Source of the DNA: Lunularia cruciata
Lineage: Eukaryota; Streptophyta; Marchantiopsida; Lunulariales; Lunulariaceae
Length of the DNA stretch: 64,000 bases
Reading direction: 5' to 3'
Assembly (NCBI GenBank): GCA_948567375.1
Contig: OX419762.1
Coordinates: forward strand, 56,128,841-56,192,840
The notes beneath the pieces were generated by a model that saw only the letters and a list, made by a program, of their open reading frames with translations, was not told where the DNA came from and did no database searches. The position numbers were made by a program, and so were the translations under genes. Below are positions 2,140-60,330 of this stretch, one piece after another (positions within the stretch are counted from its first letter, which is position 1; each line of letters begins with the position of its first letter).

Positions 2140-4341
2140 ATACGCCCAACATTTTCCTAGATGAAATCATTGTTTACAATAGGACAATGATGGAACACAA
2201 GCAACATCTACAAGAAGTCCTCCATGTTCTATGATAGAATCAATTGTATACTAAAATCTCAAAGTGTAAGTTTGGCAAGTCTGGAATAGACTACTTGGGG
2301 CACAGAGTAAGTGCAAAAGGTGTCCAAGTGTTAATAACTAAAATAGAGCTCATTAAAAAATGGAGTGCTTTAGAAGATCAAACTCAACTCAAGGGTTTCT
2401 TGGGATTGATGGAGTTCTATGGTAAATTTGTCAAGGACTTCTCTAAGGTTTCATAGCCTCTAATGACACTACTTTGCAAGGAGAAGTGGATGTTTAGCTT
2501 AAAATGGTATGATCCAAACTTCCAATCAAGATGGTTATAGATGCATCAAGCATAGCAATAAGAGCAGTCCTACAACAAGAATGGCATGACGGATGGCACC
2601 CAATTGCATATTTCTCTCGAAATTTGTTACCAATATAATGCAACTATCACACCACCAAACAAGAAGAGTTGAAATTGTCCTTGCAACCAAGCATTAGAAG
2701 CAATATCTTGGCAAGAAGGCATTTGTAGTGGAGATAGACCACAAACCTCTAGTCTACCTTGAGACATAGAAAGATCTATCTTGTCAATAGATTTGGTGGG
2801 CAGAGTGGAAAAAAAGGTTCAATATGACAATCACATATGCAAGAAGTAACTTGCATATGCATTTACCCAAATACCTATCATAACCAATTTGGTGGTAGAG
2901 GTCAAGATGAATTTTAGCCAAGGATTCTTATTGCTACAAACATTGACCCATAGATTGTAAGAGCTCAATCATCTAAAGGCATCACCAATACCCAAGGACT
3001 TGCTTTTCATGATAGTAGGTTATGGATCCCAAATCACATGGACATAAGAACCACCATCCTAGTGGAATATCATGATTCCACCATTGTAGGTCACGTTGGA
3101 GTGGACAAGACCTTGGATGCAACCAAAAACCATTATTATTGGCCCAAGATGAGCAACAATATGATGGAGTATATTTGTAGTTGCCTACTGTGCCAAAAAA
3201 ATAAAGCTTCTAATCAAGTTCTCACACGACTCCTTCAACCCCTTCCTACTCCAACACAACATTGAGAATATGTAAGCATGGATCTGGTTTGCAAATTGCC
3301 CAAGACCACCTCAAGGTTTGACTACATCATATTTTGTGTTGACCAACTCAGAAAAATGCTTCATGTGCATCCTACCACCAAGGATATAATTGCTCTACAA
3401 TTAGCTCATTGTACAAAGATGTAGTCTTTTCTCACCATGTCTTGTCTCAACTACTCATGACTAATGGAGACACTCAATTCACCAAATTTTTTTGGAGAAC
3501 AATCTTTGGTTTCTTTAAAACCAAATTGGCCATGTCCATTGCTTTCTATCCACAAACTGATGGACAAACAAAGTAGCTAATTTCACTATTGAAGACATGT
3601 TTCAGAGCCTCACTCTAGAAGAGCAAGAAAGGTGAGACACCTTACTCCCATTGGTGGAATTTGAATATAAGAATTCAATGAATGCATCTACATAGGCCAC
3701 ACCATTCTTTCTCATGTATGAAGAGCATCCTTCCACACCTTTGAGTTTGATGAAGATCCACCTAGTGGATACCAAGGTGGATGTCGTCAACACTTTTGTT
3801 CCAAAATCCAACAAGGAGTAGAGAACGCCAAACACAAGTTGCAAATTGCCTAAAATCAATAAAGACAATATTCAAATGCACATTATTGGCACAAGGAGTT
3901 CAGTATTGGGGATCAAGTTTGGTTGTCAACAACCAACCTCATGTAGTTGGCCCTTGCAAGCTCAGACATCTTTTTATTGGGGCTTTTCCCATCCTTCATC
4001 AAATCAGTGTAGTGGCCTATCACCTCGAGCTACCACCATACATGAAGACCCATCCAATATTCCATATTTCCTTACTATGCAGATATGCATCCCAATTGCC
4101 CCAATTTTCTTCTATATTTGACCTTGTTCCAACACTCATTGATGACACAAAGGAATATGAAGTAGAACGTATCCTCCAAAAACCCATATGTGGTACTCAC
4201 CATCTATGTGTGGAATATCTTGTACATTGGAATATCCCACTATATAAGGCAACATGGGAACCAACAACCAAGTTGACCAATGCACCGGTGTTAGTGAAAT
4301 CTTTTGAGCAACAGCTTTGCAACAAAGATATTACGTCTTGA
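2140..4341 (+). pseudogene. Decayed Ty3/gypsy chromovirus pol (RT end to chromodomain)
   Basis: The segment starts in reverse transcriptase after the catalytic region (a frame near 2148-2180 reads FLDEIIVYN). It continues through the RT thumb at 2244-2456 (LGHRVSAKGVQV, LKGFLGLMEFYGKFVKDFS) and decayed RNase H. The integrase zinc finger lies at 3038-3265 (YHDSTIVGHVG, then CSCLLCQ), followed by the integrase core. An open frame at 3781-4341 carries the integrase C-terminal fold (HLELPPYMKTHPIFHISLL) and a chromodomain (CVEYLVHWNIPLYKATWEP). Domain order is that of plant chromoviruses. Several frameshifts and stops inactivate it. The chromodomain ends at a stop followed by a purine-rich tract and an LTR, so this is the 3' half of a + strand copy of the same family as the - strand elements at 22,635 and 32,528. 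Confidence 0.85.
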
Positions 4342-9716: not shown

Positions 9717-12191
9717 TCAGATGTCAGCTTGTGTGTTGGATTTAGATTGGACTGAGAGCGCTCTTCTGCGAGGTACTTGGAACTCGAAGTCACTGTCATC
9801 ATCTGTAGAGGGCCACATCCCTGGAGGAGAGATGTCCCGAAGGAGAGATCTCCCATGACGCTGACCATGCCTTGATTCCTGTGCTGCAGATGAGTGCTTA
9901 TTGTCTGCTAGAAGCGCTCTCCTACGAGTTACTTCAAACTCATCATCATCCGAGGTGGGCCACATTCCTGGCGGAGAAATATCACGTAGGAGAGCTCTAC
10001 CATGTCTCTGCCAATCCCCATCAATTCCTGGCTGCGCTGGAGATGAGTTTCGGACATCAGTTGAAAATTCCTTTCTACGAGTTGATACAAAATCTTCACC
10101 GTCAGATGTGAGTGGCCACATTCCTGCAGGTGAGATGTCGCTCAGAAGAGATCTGCGATGCCTGTGACGTTCATTCTGCAATTCCAATTGCGCTGGAGAT
10201 GGCACTTTGTCTACTGCTAGCAGAGCCCTTCTACGAGTAATCTCAAACTCATCATCGTCAGCTGTAATTGGCCACATTCCTGGAGGTGAGATGTCTCTCA
10301 AAAGAGATCTGCTATGCCTGCGACGTTGATTCTGCGATTCCGGCTGTGCTGAAAGTGGAGCTTCAGCTGCTGCTAGAACCGCCCTTCTGCGGGTAACCTC
10401 AAACTCGTCGTCGTAAGACGTAATGGGCCACATTCCAGGCGGGGAAATATCGCGCAAGAGATGCCTGTGATGGTCCGCCTCCGTTCGTAGCTGCGCTAGA
10501 GACGACATTCCTCCGTATGAAAGAAGTGCTCGTTTACGAGTTACTTCAAACTCGTCATCATCAGATGTAATTGGCCACATGCCTGGAGGGGAGATATCGC
10601 GCAATAGAGCTCTGCCATGTTTGCGGGGTTGGTACTGGGAAGTCGGCTGAACTGGTGATGGAGCTTCCATCGCTGCTAGAAGTGCCCTTCTGCGTGTTAC
10701 CTCAAACTCGTCATCGTCAGATCCTACTGGCCACATTCCCGGGGGTGATACATCGCGCAAAAGAGATCTGCTATGCTTCCGACGTTGCCTATGCAGTTCA
10801 GACTGGCCTGGAGATGGAGCCTCGTGCACTGCTAGAAGTGCTCTTCTGCGAGTAAGCTCAAATTCATCATCGTCAGATGTAATTGGCCACATTCCTGGAG
10901 GTGAGATATCGCGCAGTAGAGACCTGCTATGCCTGCGCTGTGCGCTTAGCCACTCCGGCTGCGCTGGATGCGGAACTCTATCTGCTGCAAGCAGCGCTCT
11001 TCTACGCTTAAGTTCAAACTTTTCGTCATCGGATATGCTTGGCCACATTCCTGGAGGAGAAATGTCACGCAGAAGGGCCCTTCCGTGCTTGCGACCTCTG
11101 TTATCGGATGCTGGTTGCGATGAAGATGGAGTTTGATGGGCTGCTAGCAGCGCCAGTCTGCGAGTAACTTCAAACTCTTCATCATCAGATGTACTAGGCC
11201 ACATTCCTGGCGGTGAGATATCGCGAAGCAGAGCTCGAGACCGCCGGGGTATACTACTTGGAAGACCTTGAGATACGAATTTTGAAGGATGAAGTTCAAG
11301 ATCGTCAACCATGCGTGGTCGGAATCCCGAGGGAGTAGGCGTTGTTATCCTATAGATACTCTGGTCATGTGATCCGCTAAAGCGGCTTTCTTTTGCACGA
11401 GCTTTTGTCGTGGTGGGCCTCCCTTGATGAGATGTGAGGACCGGTTTCTCCACACGTGTGTGCTGCCCCTTCATGCCCAGAGAATGAGAGAACATATTTG
11501 AATTCCCATGGCCGGTGGATTTGTGTCGCCTCGAGGATATAGGTCCCACAGCTGGCTGCGCAATACTAGGAGCACTTCCCTGATTTGGTCGCGGCGACCG
11601 ACTATCAGAATCTGCAGAGGATTGCATTTTGTTCGAGTCAGGATTTCAGGTACGCGTTGTGTTGAGAACATATGTTACACTTCACAGTCGAAGCATCAGA
11701 GAGTGTAGTACGACAGCGGTTGCATTCATCAGAGCTATCAAGACTGGAATCTGCAAATGGAACAACAGACTTTGAAGATCACCTGTGTCTTTAGAGACGA
11801 GTCGAATCGATGGTACTGAATTGAGTAGTATAATCGGAAAATTGCTCGCATCGGTATGATCAACTGAATGCATTCACATGACAAACACCGATTGGTTATC
11901 ACAAAGACACAGATTTAATCTTGTGATTCATATCTGAGGGAGAAGGAAGTCGCTAGGCAATTACATTGAAAGTTTAAAAGCTGCAACAACTTGTCCGTCC
12001 AATCTGATAGATAAATACAGAAAATCTACGTTATGCAGCAACGTTGAAGAAGGAAAACTTTTCACACTAATACGGGATTCCTAACCTGATTTGAAATCAG
12101 ACGTTCCTTGAGTATTGCTACATATGCACAAAATGCAGAAGCAAATCAGAAGCCAGATGGCCATTGTTGTAATCGGGCGCTCGAACTCCAT
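9717..12191 (-). CDS. Secreted multi-repeat protein, candidate peptide precursor (gene 1)
   Basis: Modelled on the - strand as exon 1 (12191-12086) and exon 2 (11611-9717), giving 666 residues. Exon 1 encodes a strong signal peptide: MEFERPITT, the hydrophobic run MAIWLLICFCILCIC, then SNTQG. It ends at a good donor, TCAG|GTTAGG. Exon 2 starts after GCAG in the matching phase, so the joined codon is GAT. The first ATG downstream of a TATA-like box is at 12191; an internal ATG at 12164 would drop nine residues. Residues about 36-160 are a Ser/Pro/Arg-rich leader. Residues about 161-666 are ten tandem units, each with LLRDISPPGMWP, an acidic patch such as SDDDEFEVT, and a basic site such as RRRALL. 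There are no membrane segments after the signal peptide and almost no Cys after cleavage. I know no family like it. Release of repeated peptides by proteases is inferred from signal peptide plus regular basic sites. The long exon is well supported; exon 1 and the splice sites need transcript proof. Confidence 0.8.
9720..11237 (-). repeat. Ten tandem 52-codon units in gene 1
   Basis: The conserved MWP codons recur at 11204, 11048, 10892, 10736, 10580, 10433, 10277, 10121, 9965 and 9818. The spacing is 156 bp except for two steps of 147 bp. Within the core, DNA differences between units fall mainly at third codon positions of the - strand frame: GAT/GAC for Asp, ATT/ATC for Ile, TCA/TCT for Ser, CCG/CCT for Pro. 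The protein core DISPPGMWP is unchanged in eight units. Unit 4 has Val for Ile; unit 8 has SPAGMWP and SLLSD. The linkers are variable and rich in Pro, Gln, Ser and His. This pattern indicates selection on the peptide core rather than simple recent DNA amplification. Confidence 0.9.
11638..11750 (-). other. Possible alternative Cys-motif exon inside gene 1 intron
   Basis: Inside the 474-bp intron on the - strand, a pyrimidine-rich acceptor (TCTGTTGTTCCATTTGCAG, exon from 11750) is in phase with exon 1. It opens a 36-residue frame ending at the TGA at 11640-11638. The frame contains CNRCRTTL, then STVKCNIC, giving C-x2-C-R-x2-L and V-x-C-x2-C spacing like an LSD1-type zinc ribbon. Joined to exon 1 it would give a secreted protein of about 72 residues instead of the repeat protein. 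It could instead be chance, or an internal exon spliced on by a weak donor. The exon 2 acceptor shares the same GCAGATTC context. Confidence 0.35.
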
Positions 12192-19369: not shown

Positions 19370-22300
19370 GCCTATGGAGTGCAAGTTTGGTGCACTTGTA
19401 TATAAAATGGTACCTTGGAACATAGGGGAAAAGAGTACAAGGCACAAACAAGTGCAAAAAGAAAGAGAGACGCGCAAGGCCCAATAGTCCCACACTACTA
19501 AATATAGAGACAAATACCAGTAGGCTGAAAGGAACCATGGATAAAAAGTGCCCCAAGAACTAGCAGCAATGAAACCCAAGAGTGGGAGATCTACTCATGA
19601 ACCGGATGGTAGAGGTCCTCCAATGGTGTGTCCGATAAGTGGTGAGGGAGTACCCTAGCCACACTCAATGTCCCTACTATACCCCATGGTGATGAACACC
19701 CAACACCAATGCATGCTGCAAAGTGATTGATATGCATTGTTGGTAATAAGATGTGATCATTGTGTGAGATACAGCCAGTGCCCGTCTCCTCTGCAAATAA
19801 CCTTGTGCTGCATCCCTGAGGAGACCATCAAATGGTGATTTAGGTGCCCCAAAAACTCAATTGCTAGAGGGACAAAGGTATCCAATGAGAAGCTGTGATG
19901 TGTAGTGGTCCTCCTTGCCCCTAGAGGCAATGGTTGCTGTTGCTCCCGCCTGTACACCTGCTCTACAAATAACCTTGTGTTGCATCCCTGAGGAGACCAT
20001 CAAAATGGTGATGTAGGCGCCCAAAAATCTCAATCGCTAGAGGGACAAAGGTATTCAATGAGAAGCCATGATGTGTAGTGGTACTCCTTGCCCCTAGAGG
20101 CAATGGTTTCTGCTGCTCCCGCCTGTACACCGGCTTGTGTCAAACTCCACCCATAGAGGGTTCACCACTACCACATCTTATAAGGTACGGCGACCATCCA
20201 TAAAAATAACTATATCCGTTTGCACTCAATGGATAGGTGGTCCTGGTAGATCCAATCATTGCTCAATCTGAACTTGGCCAGGAGTAGCACATAAGATCTG
20301 AGTGACCGTATCTCAAAGTGCATCATGTACTCTATCGTTGTTGCTACCTATTGCACATCGTAGAAAGTGTATCCCTTGCATATCATAAGGGGAACCACAA
20401 GCATATTGGTCCGCCAACCTTATAAGAGCTAGATGGGAGACCCAACCTTAGTCCAAGTGTTGTTGAAAACTCCTCAGAAGTGCAATAGAAGTTGTCAATC
20501 AAGGGTGAAGCTTGAGCCAAGATCCAAAGCCTTTCTCCCACAAGAGAGGATCCTAGCTCTATTAGGTGAAGAAGTATTAGTGAGGATGCTAGTAAGTGTG
20601 CATATGCTTGCTAAGATCCGTATGGAGCTTCCTAGAGTCTAGGGAGACAAAGTCAATAAACTTGGGGATGAAGTGCATGCAAGGCCTAGCAATAAGTGAC
20701 AAGCCAATCAAAGATATATCTAGAAGGCATAAGTAATTGAATCCAACATTGTGATAAGTCCCAACAAAAAAGGATGTTTCATGTAAGAACTGGTATCCTA
20801 ATCGAGGAACCACTAGAGCCCATGCTCCAATATATGTTGTTGGTGTAGTGGCCTCTTGCCCTATGAGACCACATCCATCCATGACTATGAGGAAAGCCAT
20901 ATGTCGCACTCATCTAATAGATATGGGAGTGTGCATGATCCTAACAAAGTGGAGAACGGATGGCGGATAGTACTATCAAAAATCCACAAATTGGCAAGAG
21001 TACTTTTGTATGCAAGAAAGTCCATGTTAGATATGAGGCCTAGGAAATAACTGAGAATGGAATAGGCCACTTGGGTATTCCCCAACCGGGGAGGAGGTGA
21101 GCATGGGATGTGGCCTATACTAACATGTCTGATATGAACAAAAGTACAAAAATCATCTTGTTCCAATAGAGATCCCAAAACTCTCAAACCCCTGATAGGA
21201 ATCTAGAATCCTCATGAAAGTCAATAAGAGTGAGACCATGTGCGGGCTCTAGACCTTGCATTTATGATTCTGGACTTGTAAACCCAAGACCTCTAAGTTG
21301 AGTGTGAAAGTAGCACCAATCTAACTACATCCTTTAATGGATCCAAAATGTGAATGTCATCCAAGATAGATGGGAAAAGGCAAGATGGGAAAGTTATTGC
21401 AAATTTCATAAAGCCGAGTAATGTGCTATGGTAAATAGAGGCCCTCCAATGGATCCCCTTGTCATGTGCACTCAATTGATGTTAACTATGAGAACTCTCT
21501 TGTAGTGATATGGTGGCTATACAATAGACATGTCTCAATACCATAGAATATATGAACAAATGGGATCAAGGAAGAGATTTAATGTGTAGTTGAGCAAAGA
21601 AAGCCGAATAATACTAAACAAGAGATTGTATTGAAGGCATTGGAGACACCAACTTGGACCACCACTCAATCTGGATATATGTTCAAGGATGCCTGAACAC
21701 ACACAATAACCATCTTGTATCCCCTTGGAGTAGCCACAACAAACTTATGGTGAGACAAGAAGGAAGAAAAAAATTGTCACATCTGTAAGTAGATAGCAAG
21801 AGAGACGAAATGCAAAAAAAACATCCCCGATGGCTATGAGGTGCACACCTAAGGTCTCCTTTGCTAGAGCAAGGAGACGAGATGCACCAAGCAGATGAGC
21901 TACCCCAAGAGGCACATGAGAGGAGGCAATGCATTGGTAGAATGCAAAGAGAAGAGGAAAACCTGAATCTAGAGCATTCGGGGAGAGGCAATCCCCTAGG
22001 TGCTCAAAAAATAGCCCAGCTAGACCACCCATTGAGAAACATAGAGAGTGAAATAGGGCATGGGAAAAACAATACTCTATCATTTGTAACTCCTCATTTG
22101 GCTGATAATCATGAAGGAATTAAGGAAGGTCTTCAAAGGAGGGTAGATGGAGGGTCTAGAGGTCTAATAAAGCCTCAGAGGAGAAGAGCATTGGTCAGGA
22201 GTGTGAGAACACTTGGGCTATCTGCCCATGCTTCCCTACTTGACCTAACATCAAGGATGAATAGAGGCTATGGTGCTCTAGAGGTAAGATGTGGGGTTGT

Positions 22301-23210: not shown

Positions 23211-23632
23211 AACTTCCCCTTTTAATATGCAACGTCCTTATTACAAAGTTGTTACTCAAAAGATTACACTAACATTTGTGCACTGGTCAAGTTAGCTACA
23301 TGCCTCCATATTGACTCATAAAATGGGTACCCTTTCCAATGTACAAGATATTCCTCATAAGGATGGCAGGTACCACAGATGCATTTTTGGAGAATGTGTT
23401 TAACTTTGCATTCCTTTGTGCCATCATTGAGTGTTGGACAAGGTTAAGCTTCTTGTATGGAAGAAAAGTGGGGTGGTTGGGTGTATATTTTCATGCAAGG
23501 AAACATGAAACATTGGATAGATCTTCATATATGGTGATTGCTTAAGGTGATAGGTCATTGTGCCAATTTGATAGATGATGGGAAAAGGGTCAATAAAATG
23601 AGGTTTGAGCTTATAAGGGAAACCCTTATATG

Positions 23633-23658
23633 TTTAGGGTTTAGGGTTTAGGGTTTAG
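23633..23658 (+). repeat. Interstitial plant telomere-type repeat
   Basis: Three full TTTAGGG units plus TTTAG lie inside the integrase region of the chromovirus at 22,635. They are followed directly by an inverted repeat. The array is too short for a chromosome end, and it may mark a repaired break or an inserted fragment. Confidence 0.9.
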
Positions 23659-42782: not shown

Positions 42783-43112
42783 TCAAGAGGAAAAAGAAGA
42801 GGGGTTAGGAACAAAGGGTTTCAACTTGGAAACATGAAAGATACGATGGATGTGCATATGACAAGGCAAGGCAAGTTGATAAGCAACCGGAAAGACAATT
42901 TGGGTGACATCAAAAGGTCCTATCCAATTAGGGGTAAGTTTATGAACTTGGGTATCAAGTGGGAGAGGTATATTACTAGAGGATAGCATAAATTTATCAC
43001 CAACTTCAAAGGTGAGATCATGATGATGGTGGTCCACATATTGTTTTTGACAATTTTGAGCAACAAGGAGGTGAGATTTGGCTTGTTGGAGAGTTTTGGA
43101 TATGGTGGTCAA
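42783..43112 (-). pseudogene. Integrase C-terminal part, family C
   Basis: A 109-codon open frame carrying AKSHLLVAQNCQKQYVD, VGDKFMLSSSNI, LTPNWIGPFDV and HRIFHVSKLKPF. These are the typical steps of a gypsy integrase C-terminal domain (GPY/F-like). No chromodomain could be read after it, so it was either lost or never present. It directly follows the integrase core frame. Confidence 0.75.
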
Positions 43113-43133
43113 GAAGGTTGAAGTATGAGGGAC

Positions 43134-43757
43134 CTAAGACGCGGGAGGATCAAGAAGAGAATCTGGGACAAGCGGATCTTGGCCAAAATTGAGAAAGAAA
43201 GGAGAGAATCTGATGCTTACCTCTTTAGAATTGTTGTATGCAAACTCCGCAGCTGCAAGACATTCATCCCAATTGGTATGGTGAATGTTGACAAAGGCAA
43301 GAAGCATATCTTCCAAGGTGCAATTTGCACGTTTAGTTTTTCCATCAGTTTGAGGATGATAGGCTGTGGAAAAAGCAAGCTTGGTGCCAAGTATCTCGAA
43401 GAGAGCTTGCCAAAACTTTTTGGTTAAGAGAGGATCACCTTCGGAGATGAGTATATGTGGCATCCCATGATGTTTGAATACATTATCAAAGTAGAGTAGT
43501 GCCAAGGTTGGAGTATCCACAATATCGACCATTGGTGTGAAATGGATTTGCTTACTAAGCTTGTCTACAACCACCACAATTGTTGTGTGACCTTGTTGTG
43601 TCTTGGGCAAGGAGGTGATGAGATCTAAGCTCACATATTCCCAACGAGTAGTTGGAATGGGAAGTGGCTGAAGGAGTCCACTCAGCTTCTGGTTATTAGC
43701 CTTGTTCCATTGATAACTCCCACACGATTGGACAAACTCCCAAACATCTTGGGTCAT
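43134..43757 (-). pseudogene. Integrase core, family C
   Basis: A 207-codon open frame begins after the zinc finger (SCGSYQWNKANNQ, where the second Cys of the usual CxxC is altered). The first catalytic Asp is present in VSLDLITSLP. The second catalytic region reads ISEGDPLLTKKFW, where family members usually have SDRDPRF. The third reads YHPQTDGKTKRAN, with Lys in place of the catalytic Glu of the usual TERxN. Length and spacing are otherwise normal. The loss of the Glu means this integrase would be inactive even if made. Confidence 0.85.
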
Positions 43758-44000
43758 GTTAGGCCACCACCATTAGAGTTGGAGGGTACCCAAGGTCTTG
43801 TCCACCTCCATGTGACTAGCTATTGGTAGATCATGGGCTTCTTGAAGGCGTGCAAGTCGGAGATCACCTTTGGCTAGAACATAGATCCAATCCGCATGGA
43901 ATAGAAGGCCTTCCTTGAAGGAGAAGGTTGTTGTACTCCTTGTCACCTACTATCAGATGACCATGTACTATTTGGAAGAAGGATCTTGTTGTAGAGCTGA

Positions 44001-45779: not shown

Positions 45780-46133
45780 TCAGGTCCAATCAAATTGAAC
45801 CTTATGACGTTCAAGCCAAGGTAGACTCAGAATGATATCATAGTGTAGAGGTGCCACTACAAACCTCAAACACTCTAAATACTCCATCCCAATCTTGAAG
45901 GTAAGAGGATGTGAGATGCGGAATGCAGAACCTTTTCTACCATCTGCCATCATCAAACTACTTCCAATCACTGGCTTGATAGGAATACCCAATTCCTTTG
46001 CTACTTGCATAAACATGCAATTCTCTGAATTTCCATAATCAACCAAAATCCTATAAACCCGATTAGATATTGTACCTTGCAAGTGAAGCAAACTTGCATA
46101 GGTCAAGCCTTCAACCCCATTGGAACTAATCAA
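45780..46133 (-). pseudogene. Retroviral-type aspartic protease, family C
   Basis: A 117-codon frame has ILVDYGNSENCMFMQVAKEL where the active site LVDSGxSxNF is expected, and DIILSLPWLERHKVQFDW at the end, matching the conserved ILGxPWL segment. The active-site D is present but the following Ser/Thr is Tyr. It lies between gag and reverse transcriptase as expected. Confidence 0.75.
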
Positions 46134-46139
46134 GCTCCT

Positions 46140-47150
46140 AGTAAGCGGCTCAAAATCTCCTATTGGGATTCCATGTTTCCCTAATCATTCTATTCCATAA
46201 ACTCCATTCGGGCAACTTGTCAAGGTCGCCCATTCCTAAGTGTGCATTCAACAATGCAATGTCCAACTTGGTGACAATAAAAACAACCTCCATTTTTTTG
46301 TAATCTTTCTCTATTCACTATACCAAGTGGTCTCCGTTAAATAGCATCAATGTCAGTTGGTGCAGGTTCTTCCACCCGTGCATAGTGTACTAGTAGGCCT
46401 TGTGTAGGTTGAGGTCAAGACCAAGTTGTTACCACCAAGGAATCAAAGCACTCAGCAAATTGCATGGCTTCTTCTACATTTTGTGGTTCTTACATGGTCG
46501 CCTCTAATTTGGTTCCTGCCTTCAATCCCCATACAAATTGATCTAGAACTTCACCTTCTTTTATATCTAGAATCTGCATGATGATGTTCTGAAATTGTGT
46601 GATGTAGCTCCATACTAAGCCAACTTGCTTCAACTCTGCCAATTCATCTTGTGCGGCTTGGGTGGCATTTATAGTTTAAAACCAATCCAATATTATGTCC
46701 TTGAATTTTTCCCATGTTAAAATTGGTGCAACAATCTGTCATTTTGCTTGCTCCACTCAAAATTGCCACCAAAGTTTTGCCACACCATTTAATTAGCTAG
46801 AGGCCAAGAGAATATGTTTCCATTCATCTTGAAGATTGGTGGCTTCAAAGTAACATTTGCAATCAAACATAAAATTCTCCATTGTGCCCAAAAGATTCTT
46901 GCCTTCAAACACCTTGGCTTTTAGAAATTGAATGTGATCTTCTCCATCTTGAATTGGCACTCTCTCTCTATATGTTCTCGTCGTTGCTGATCTCTTTCAT
47001 CCAACAATCAAGCAAGGTGCTTGATTTGTTGTTGCATTGCAACAAGAATGTCTGATATTGCTGCCATAACTACTACTCTATCCCACTACCCCCAATTTAT
47101 CTAATTGATTAGCACATAGATGTAGCACGTCCACCATTCTCCATAAGTTA
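46140..47150 (-). pseudogene. gag, family C
   Basis: Broken gag frame. The zinc knuckle at 46,244-46,285 is intact: CFYCHQVGHCIVEC, exact C-x2-C-x4-H-x4-C. The rest has several stops and frame changes and was assigned by position. Confidence 0.7.
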
Positions 47151-59246: not shown

Positions 59247-60330
59247 TCAGAAGTAATCATTATGATCGCCTTGCAAATGAGTTTCTGCGGGTATCTCTAA
59301 AGCCAGATCCTCTCCCGGACAGGCGCATTCAGCTGAACGTGCACCAAGCTCGAGAAGTCTTCTACGGTCAAATTCAGAAGGCGGGGCATCAGTGCTTGGC
59401 CACATTCCAGGAGGGGAAATATCGCGGAGTAGAGTTCTTCCTAAGCATGGTGGCATGATAGCTTCTTCAAACTTAGATTGAATCCAGAAGTCGTACGTGG
59501 CTGCAGACTCGAGGGCCCTTCTGCCCGAGAACTCAGGTGGTGCATCAGTCACCGGCCACATTTCTGGAGGGGAGATATCTTGAAGGAGAAAACGTCTTGG
59601 AACAAGAAGAGTAGGTCCGCCATGCTTGCTAACCGATTCAAATTTTATGTCTTCGGCGTTATTATCAGCAGAAGGTTTAGACGTTCTTTCACGACGTTTA
59701 GCATGGGGTTTTCCTTCCAACCAACTTTCGCTCGGAGACCCTATTGGATTTTTTCCATGCATCCCAGTTTCTTTGGTCAGAAATCTTCCAACTTCTGCTC
59801 CAATCGAATCGTCTGCGTCAACAAAGGCATATCACTTTTTGAGAATGTATACCAAATTACTAAACAAAGGTAGAACTCAGGCGACAGGAATGGACGTGCT
59901 ACGTGTTGGCGAGTGCTCCTGCTTCATGAGCTTACGCACAGCCCACATGCTTATGACATAACATGGAGCATCTGCAGATTCACTTTCCTTTGATATGGTA
60001 GAACTAAAAGCTTACATATCCAATTTAAATTCATCTTCTCAACCTCCCAACAGAATATAAATGATGATACAACAGTACATACTAAACATGTGCAGTCTCA
60101 TCTACGAATCTGAAATGGGTTCCGTGACTATGTACCAAACTACGTTTTCACAGGTTCACAAAGAAAGGTAAAACTTGGGATATGTGGTATTGGAATTGCG
60201 AACCGGTTAGCCGCCTCGTGTTGGTGCGTCGCGCAGGTGCTGCTCCGTTGGATAGCAGAAGATTACCACATGCAACAAGTAAGAAGGTACTTGCACCCAG
60301 TGTGATTCTGAGCTGCACATGAGTCGTCAT
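59247..60330 (-). CDS. Secreted two-repeat protein, paralogue of gene 1 (gene 2)
   Basis: Modelled on the - strand as exon 1 (60330-60204) and exon 2 (59812-59247), 230 residues. The ATG at 60330 is the first ATG downstream of a clear TATA box. Exon 1 encodes a signal peptide: MTTHVQLR, the hydrophobic run ITLGASTFLLVACGNLLL, then SNGAAPA and an Arg-rich start RRTNTRR. The proposed donor ACCG|GTTCGC is weak; the acceptor GACGCAG gives the same phase and the same joined Asp codon as in gene 1. Unit A (from residue 116) has FLLQDISPPEMWPVT; unit B (from residue 168) has TLLRDISPPGMWPST. Both are followed by a DAPP stretch and by GRRAL or RRRLL. The C-terminal tail from about residue 195 differs from gene 1. 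Core and basic sites are conserved while the acidic linker has diverged, which points to the core as the functional part. Function is unknown; a peptide-precursor role is inferred. Confidence 0.7.
59398..59594 (-). repeat. Two 52-codon units in gene 2
   Basis: The MWP codons lie at 59,561 and 59,405, exactly 156 bp apart. This is the same period as in gene 1, although the linker sequences share little similarity. Confidence 0.85.

Follow-up and report, generated by a model that had tools for sequence, protein, structure and literature searches.

Candidate multi-copy secreted-peptide precursors with a DISPPGMW-type core in Lunularia cruciata and other liverworts

Precursors of the RGF/GLV/CLEL and RALF peptides carry a signal peptide, CEP precursors hold several copies of a short peptide within one secreted precursor, and in tyrosine-sulfated peptides the mature unit contains DY or EY. 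As for the cleavage of such precursors (↓ marks a cut site here and a splice junction below), the processing data of PMC13082318 give RxxL/RxLx as the site of SBT6.1 and SBT3.5; SBT6.1 cleaves GLV1 at ERRRA↓L↓GG (VETG follows) and RALF23 at NRRIL↓A, PROSCOOP12 is cleaved at RRLM↓G, and SBT3.8 cleaves PROSCOOP20 at TLLR↓DLK. Here, we describe a gene (below, the main gene) on the minus strand of a 64,000-nucleotide stretch of Lunularia cruciata DNA (assembly GCA_948567375.1, contig OX419762.1, positions 56,128,841 to 56,192,840; referred to as the window), which encodes ten units with near-identical cores preceded by R-x-L-L sites, together with its relatives in the same genome and in other liverworts. 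These genes are best read as conserved multi-copy secreted-peptide precursors, a type of gene already known, among which they would form a new family.

The initial annotation of the window had claimed ten tandem units of 52 residues whose core is nearly invariant in protein while its DNA varies at third codon positions. The minus-strand frame 9717-11645 is open over 642 codons and indeed holds ten LLRDISPPGMWP-type cores, each of 12 residues, which start at 11231, 11075, 10919, 10763, 10607, 10460, 10304, 10148, 9992 and 9845. The claimed unit length stands for seven of the nine core-to-core intervals and fails for the other two, which measure 49 residues. Eight cores read LLRDISPPGMWP exactly, in unit 4 the I is replaced by V and in unit 8 the R by S and a P by A, and nine of the 12 core positions are invariant across all ten units. 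The array was also detected independently by Tandem Repeats Finder (period 156, 10088-11225).

The claim about third positions was borne out as well. Among the 45 pairs of 36-base cores, differences at codon positions 1, 2 and 3 number 58, 0 and 257, and the mean nonsynonymous (dN) and synonymous (dS) divergences are 0.039 and 1.25 on the 29 pairs that could be used (the remaining 16 yielded either no estimate or no positive dS). When the units are compared with one another, their protein is 95% identical in the core, 49% over the next 19 residues and 30% over the following 9, and their DNA 81%, 57% and 49%. The protein is thus more alike than the DNA within the core and the reverse holds elsewhere, which argues for selection on the peptide. 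We conclude that purifying selection acts on the core peptide.

The surroundings of the core were compared by means of a fixed expression that finds 46 cores in 13 proteins of the family; positions inside the core are partly set by this expression and are not evidence, whereas those ahead of it were left free. At the latter, R stands at -5 in 41 of the 46 units, L at -3 in 42 and L at -2 in 42, and the residue immediately before the core is R in 29 and A in 13. Downstream, 33 cores are followed within 27 residues by a dibasic motif and two mostly hydrophobic residues (where units adjoin, this is the upstream motif of the next unit, so the two counts overlap). In the main protein R-x-L-L occurs 16 times, against a mean of 0.485 and a maximum of 4 in 2000 shuffled sequences. 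The cores had been described earlier as lying between basic sites; flanking sites do exist, but they are better described as R-x-L-L sites. The core W is followed by P in 32 of the 46 units and in the rest mostly by Q, T or S. Most cores form the beginning of a stretch of about 20 residues that is poor in K and R, and the simplest reading is that the released peptide would be of about this length, starting at (R/A)DISPPG and ending directly ahead of the basic run.

Sites of the S1P/SBT6.1 type (RxxL/RxLx) are thus present in the units, and cleavage there is predicted from their sequence. The TRRRALLA and SLLR-DIS segments of the main units resemble known subtilase sites, which is a resemblance and no proof. 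The RGF/GLV/CLEL and RALF precursors, which SBT6.1 processes, share with the main gene a site of the R-R-x-L type (PMC13082318), and the PROSCOOP precursors have RxLx/RxxL sites, TLLR↓DLK of PROSCOOP20 being like SLLR-DIS.

We consider it probable that these genes encode precursors of a family of secreted liverwort peptides released by RxLL-directed subtilases, both secretion and cleavage being predictions. The short first exon would supply the signal peptide by which a long, unfolded protein enters the secretory pathway, where subtilases of the S1P/SBT6.1 and SBT3 kinds would cut R-x-L-L ahead of each core and RRRALL (or KRRLL, RRSLL) after most of the acidic tails. In this way up to ten copies of (R)DISPPGMWPITSDDDEFEVT, or of a similar peptide about 20 residues long, would be set free. 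The released peptide may then act extracellularly, and its most likely role would be that of a signal perceived by a receptor kinase in the membrane.

Comparison with named peptide families agreed with the earlier claim that the core is unlike CLE, CEP, IDA, RGF, PSY, PIP and RALF peptides. None of the 13 proteins matches motif expressions for CLE, CEP, RGF/GLV, IDA, PSK, PSY, PIP or RALF; the likeness to CEP precursors in copy number does not extend to the CEP motif. The SCOOP mature peptide carries SxS, which is found in only five of the 46 units, and the rest of its mature motif differs from the liverwort units. Looking for DY or EY as a mark of tyrosine sulfation, we found four of the 46 units (three in R1flu_026622 of Riccia fluitans and one in Mapa_016361 of Marchantia paleacea) and none among the units of the window. 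As a separate observation, DDDY occurs in all three units of R1flu_026622 (P0004), where we take it to be a possible sulfation site, and the window's units are without it. In animal neuropeptides of the GLWamide type, the signature is GLW followed by an amidation and basic cleavage signal. The hydrozoan GLWamide preprohormones are likewise multi-copy, and the SPPGLWamide given in PMC8638164 is like the SPPGLW of Mapa_016361; however, W is the amidated end of the animal peptide, while the liverwort chain continues past it, and we take the likeness as convergence. CEP genes have been reported absent in Physcomitrella and Selaginella (PMC4197245).

The gene had also been called undescribed. This holds in so far as no description of the core peptide was found in the main texts of open-licence PMC papers, and term searches of PMC9901580 (on peptide genes that Marchantia has in common with Arabidopsis), PMC8792609 (Marchantia cell-wall proteome) and PMC11756074 (a review) returned nothing on it. 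It does not hold for databases, in which records already exist, and the seven Marchantia and Riccia homologues considered below are all hypothetical proteins without a family name.

For paralogues we searched the 566-Mb Lunularia assembly (74 contigs) with a degenerate nucleotide pattern encoding D-I-S-P-P-G-(NTN)-W and with the reversed pattern as a control. There were 13 exact matches, all within five genes (eight in the main gene, one in a gene that we call paralogue 2, one each in L009 and L010, and two in L024), and none with the control. The pattern is strict, hence it shows only eight of the ten main-gene units and one of the two units of paralogue 2; copies more diverged than the search queries may have escaped. 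Four of the genes lie on C12 within about 137 kb: the main gene, paralogue 2 (59247-60330, minus strand, 48 kb from the main gene, with E for G in one of its two cores), L009 at about 56.118 Mb and L010 at about 56.255 Mb. The fifth, L024, is on another chromosome (C1, about 76.259 Mb); over its positions 2498-4030 (C1 about 76.258-76.260 Mb) it has head-to-tail LLADISPPGMW units of 25-26 residues in at least three exons as judged by eye, and it matches Mapa_016361 and MPTK2_1g09210. Upstream in L024 there are further degenerate units, ADISDLGMWQ and LADIFSLLNVWQ. A sixth, degenerate stretch, RRELFADISPPGLSSADDDD, was seen at about 1500-1625 of L043 (C8, about 24.3797 Mb; E 0.209), without W and with a stop inside the matched range; it is possibly a decayed or divergent family member. 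An origin of the repeats from a transposon or a simple repeat was rejected, as the degenerate core pattern matches five genes only in the whole genome.

Searches of 5.8 billion predicted proteins yielded eight distinct homologues: one search returned five, a second two and a third three, of which two had served as query rows. To the earlier description we can add four paralogues in the same genome and relatives in three named liverworts. These are MPTK1_8g11600, MPTK1_8g11620 and MPTK2_1g09210 of M. polymorpha, Mapa_016361 of M. paleacea, R1flu_026622, R1flu_026619 and R1flu_026592 of R. fluitans, and one contig protein (P0002). We count the Marchantia and Riccia proteins as family members, with the core, the R-x-L-L-type flank and the acidic tail in common with the main gene. 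MPTK1_8g11620 is matched with E 1.1e-117 and 51% identity over 63% of the query, and its annotated start is a methionine inside a core, which means that its 5' end is missing; R1flu_026592 is weak by itself (E 5.8). Mapa_016361 and MPTK2_1g09210 differ from the main gene in having ADISPPG-(L/M/V/I)-W with no P after W and units of 25-26 residues placed head to tail; in these two and in the C1 gene one KRxLL-type motif ends one unit and begins the next. No named match outside liverworts was present among the candidates scored (in two of the searches, the 7996 and 7993 that have most words in common with the query).

AlphaFold2 with an alignment of eight rows gave the main protein a mean predicted local distance difference test score (pLDDT) of 46.5 and a predicted template-modelling score (pTM) of 0.22, with only 33 of 642 residues at pLDDT 70-90 (short helices); the precursor is thus predicted to be largely unfolded, as a propeptide would be, and a folded repeat domain was rejected on these values. 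Its only relatives among solved structures were two U2AF chains, taken as chance matches (E 1.1 and 1.2). In Pfam, nothing in the main open reading frame (ORF) passed a curated cut-off, the only hit being PF23588 (E 0.0041, 17.5 bits against 27), and a search with 11 family members (the main gene as a 95-residue piece) gave a single weak match, Lipid_DES in one member (E 0.06). A long, disordered and repetitive protein, with proline- and acid-rich units in copy numbers from 1 to 10 across the family, could also be secreted and yet not serve as a hormone precursor: whole or in fragments, it might be a component of the cell wall or surface, or a defence peptide with a direct effect on microbes. 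We regard this as unlikely, though it is the strongest of the alternatives. The single-copy members L009, L010 and R1flu_026592 retain the core and the R-x-(L/I)-L flank, although a repeat with a structural role could do without them, and the unit is acidic, while most antimicrobial peptides are not.

The evidence for entry into the secretory pathway comes from the first exons. The claim that a signal-like exon lies upstream of the long exon in the needed phase was upheld for the main gene: its exon 1 starts with an ATG at 12191, reads MEFERPITTMAIWLLICFCILCICSNTQG..., ends one base into a codon with a donor after 12086, and has a hydropathy of 3.52 and a donor score of 7 of 9. The acceptor site CCTCTGCAG↓A (11612/11611) brings the reading back into frame, and joining 12086-12191 to 11611 gives one open frame of 666 residues with a single stop. 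A candidate signal exon with a phase-1 donor was found upstream in all five family genes, in four of them by a crude scan (hydropathy, the -3/-1 rule and the donor score). The distance from signal candidate to acceptor is 580 bases in the main gene, 519 in paralogue 2 and 1135 in L010. L009 has no candidate within 2.5 kb; over 11.9 kb there are several, of which the nearest, 3118 bases away, also scores best (hydropathy 2.73, donor 8). In L024 the exon 2498-2615 was picked by eye (hydropathy 2.58). As a background we used 90 kb (13001-58000, both strands), which at hydropathy of at least 2.3 and donor of at least 7 contains 3, 0 and 1 candidates in phases 0, 1 and 2; at hydropathy of at least 2.7 and the same donor score it contains 1, 0 and 0, and the main gene, L009 and L010 all pass this level in phase 1. 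Sequence likeness was seen between the signal exon of L024 and Mapa_016361 (z 14.2) and MPTK2_1g09210 (z 11.8), between MPTK1_8g11600 and R1flu_026622 (z 7.5), and between paralogue 2 exon 1 and the MPTK1_8g11600 segment (z 4.0, a score reached by one of 300 shuffles). Signal-like segments are present in four of the eight homologue records (the four proteins just named). Taken together, these results lend some support to a putative recurring signal exon of fixed phase.

Several points weigh against a secreted and cleaved precursor. The downstream motif is missing in 13 of the 46 units, six of which are the last of their record, and although the 15 residues from the core D are free of K and R in 45 of 46 units compared with 694 of 3708 windows overall, the core expression, in which K and R are largely disallowed, favours this count. 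The thresholds of the signal scan were picked after the candidates had been seen. The L009 exon is one among several candidates over 11.9 kb, the donor of paralogue 2 is weak (5 of 9) and the background holds eight phase-1 candidates at a donor score of at least 5, and the last exon of L010 is out of phase 1 at its nearest acceptor as judged by eye, so that a middle exon is needed there. The signal exon of the main gene has no clear homology to the others (best z 2.8, with Mapa_016361), and the evidence for it is hence its position, phase and hydropathy. Among the homologues, the signal-like stretch starts at an internal methionine in Mapa_016361 (Met91) and for the MPTK1_8g11600 segment (Met53), the MPTK2_1g09210 segment is weak (hydropathy 1.69), and the crude scan saw no signal-like start in R1flu_026619, R1flu_026592, P0002 or MPTK1_8g11620; the first exons may be absent from the first three of these records.

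The last point would also suit a cytosolic or nuclear disordered protein, in which the core would be a docking motif whose repetition raises avidity. Ahead of the repeats, the long ORF contains an in-frame ATG (11627, MQSSADSDSR), basic runs are many, half of the homologue records lack a signal-like start, and docking-motif proteins likewise have invariant short cores. Nevertheless, the signal-like segments of MPTK1_8g11600, R1flu_026622, Mapa_016361 and MPTK2_1g09210 and the phase-1 signal exons in the Lunularia genome speak against it, and we hold such a protein to be quite improbable.

The exact 5' exon structure of the main gene is unsettled between two acceptors. Another site resembling an acceptor, at 11751/11750, has the same phase as 11612/11611 and the better pyrimidine tract (0.60 vs 0.45), and the frame that follows it is DSSLDSSDECNRCRTTLSDASTVKCNICSQHNAYLKS, with a stop after 37 residues unless a weak donor is used; both points also weigh against the secreted precursor. 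The phase-1 donors in this stretch are weak (best 5 of 9); through one of them the stretch would become a middle exon, with the repeats still in frame behind it. The C1 gene seems by eye to hold a comparable 1-1 middle exon. The 37-residue stretch scores against zf-LSD1 with E=0.0024 and 18.2 bits, under the cut-off of 20.2. At about 11640-11750 of the window (minus strand), an in-phase CxxC...CxxC reading, CNRCRTTLSDASTVKCNIC, lies past a good acceptor within the main intron. That the main gene mostly uses the 11751 acceptor to make a 72-residue secreted CxxC-CxxC protein, the repeats being decaying or an alternative product, would fit the better tract and the weak zf-LSD1 score but is very hard to reconcile with a repeat ORF that is intact, strongly constrained and conserved in Marchantia. 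The features of the main gene and of paralogue 2 are listed in Table 1.

Table 1. Positions in the window of the main gene, its unit array and paralogue 2.
Feature	Coordinates	Strand	Content
Main gene exon 1	12086..12191	-	Start codon and signal-peptide-like segment MEFERPITTMAIWLLICFCILCICSNTQGTSDFKS; phase-1 donor CAG↓GTTAGG
Main gene inferred intron	11612..12085	-	GT...AG, phase 1
Main gene long exon	9717..11611	-	126 residues ahead of first core, ten units, stop codon
Array of ten units	9747..11252	-	Unit: R-x-L-L-(R) DISPPGMWP, acidic tail, (RRRALL in most), variable spacer
Paralogue 2 exon 1	60204..60330	-	MTTHVQLRITLGASTFLLVACGNLLLSNGAAPARRTNTRRLT; donor CCG↓GTTCGC, phase 1, weak
Paralogue 2 exon 2	59247..59812	-	Two units: LLQDISPPEMWP (59490-59609), LLRDISPPGMWP (59334-59453)

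Elsewhere in the window there are broken retroelement pieces at 2954-3262 (plus strand), 42789-43772 (minus) and 45783-46184 (minus), with an integrase zinc-binding domain at 67.7 bits and at 23.7 bits (the latter below cut-off), a Tf2-1-like SH3 domain at 61.8 bits and a gag aspartyl protease below cut-off. A direct tandem duplication of 173 bases with 91% matches lies at 19789-20135, and a short GTTTAGG run of 3.9 copies at 23632-23658; GTTTAGG corresponds to the telomere repeat of plants, TTTAGGG, read from another starting base. No RNA family reached the gathering score in the window.

Returning to the secreted, subtilase-released peptides, we see about even chances for a more specific proposal, namely a liverwort-specific family of peptide hormones or phytocytokines with a receptor of its own, in which RxLL-cut units occur in up to ten copies per precursor and the RDISPPGMWP and ADISPPGxW subfamilies are placed on different chromosomes. 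According to PMC11020214, Mp1g09210, a gene of unknown function, is raised in the thermospermine synthase mutant Mpacl5 as measured by reverse-transcription quantitative PCR (RT-qPCR); by its common number it is likely the same gene as MPTK2_1g09210. If so, one member of the family is expressed in thalli and responds to the loss of thermospermine synthase, and the ADISPPGxW member may be stress-linked. The conserved units are short and well bounded, and can be synthesised and tested directly, also in Marchantia. If the proposed precursors are real, liverworts would have a multi-copy precursor with a core unlike those of the named plant families compared, and the family could supply the ligand for an orphan liverwort receptor kinase.

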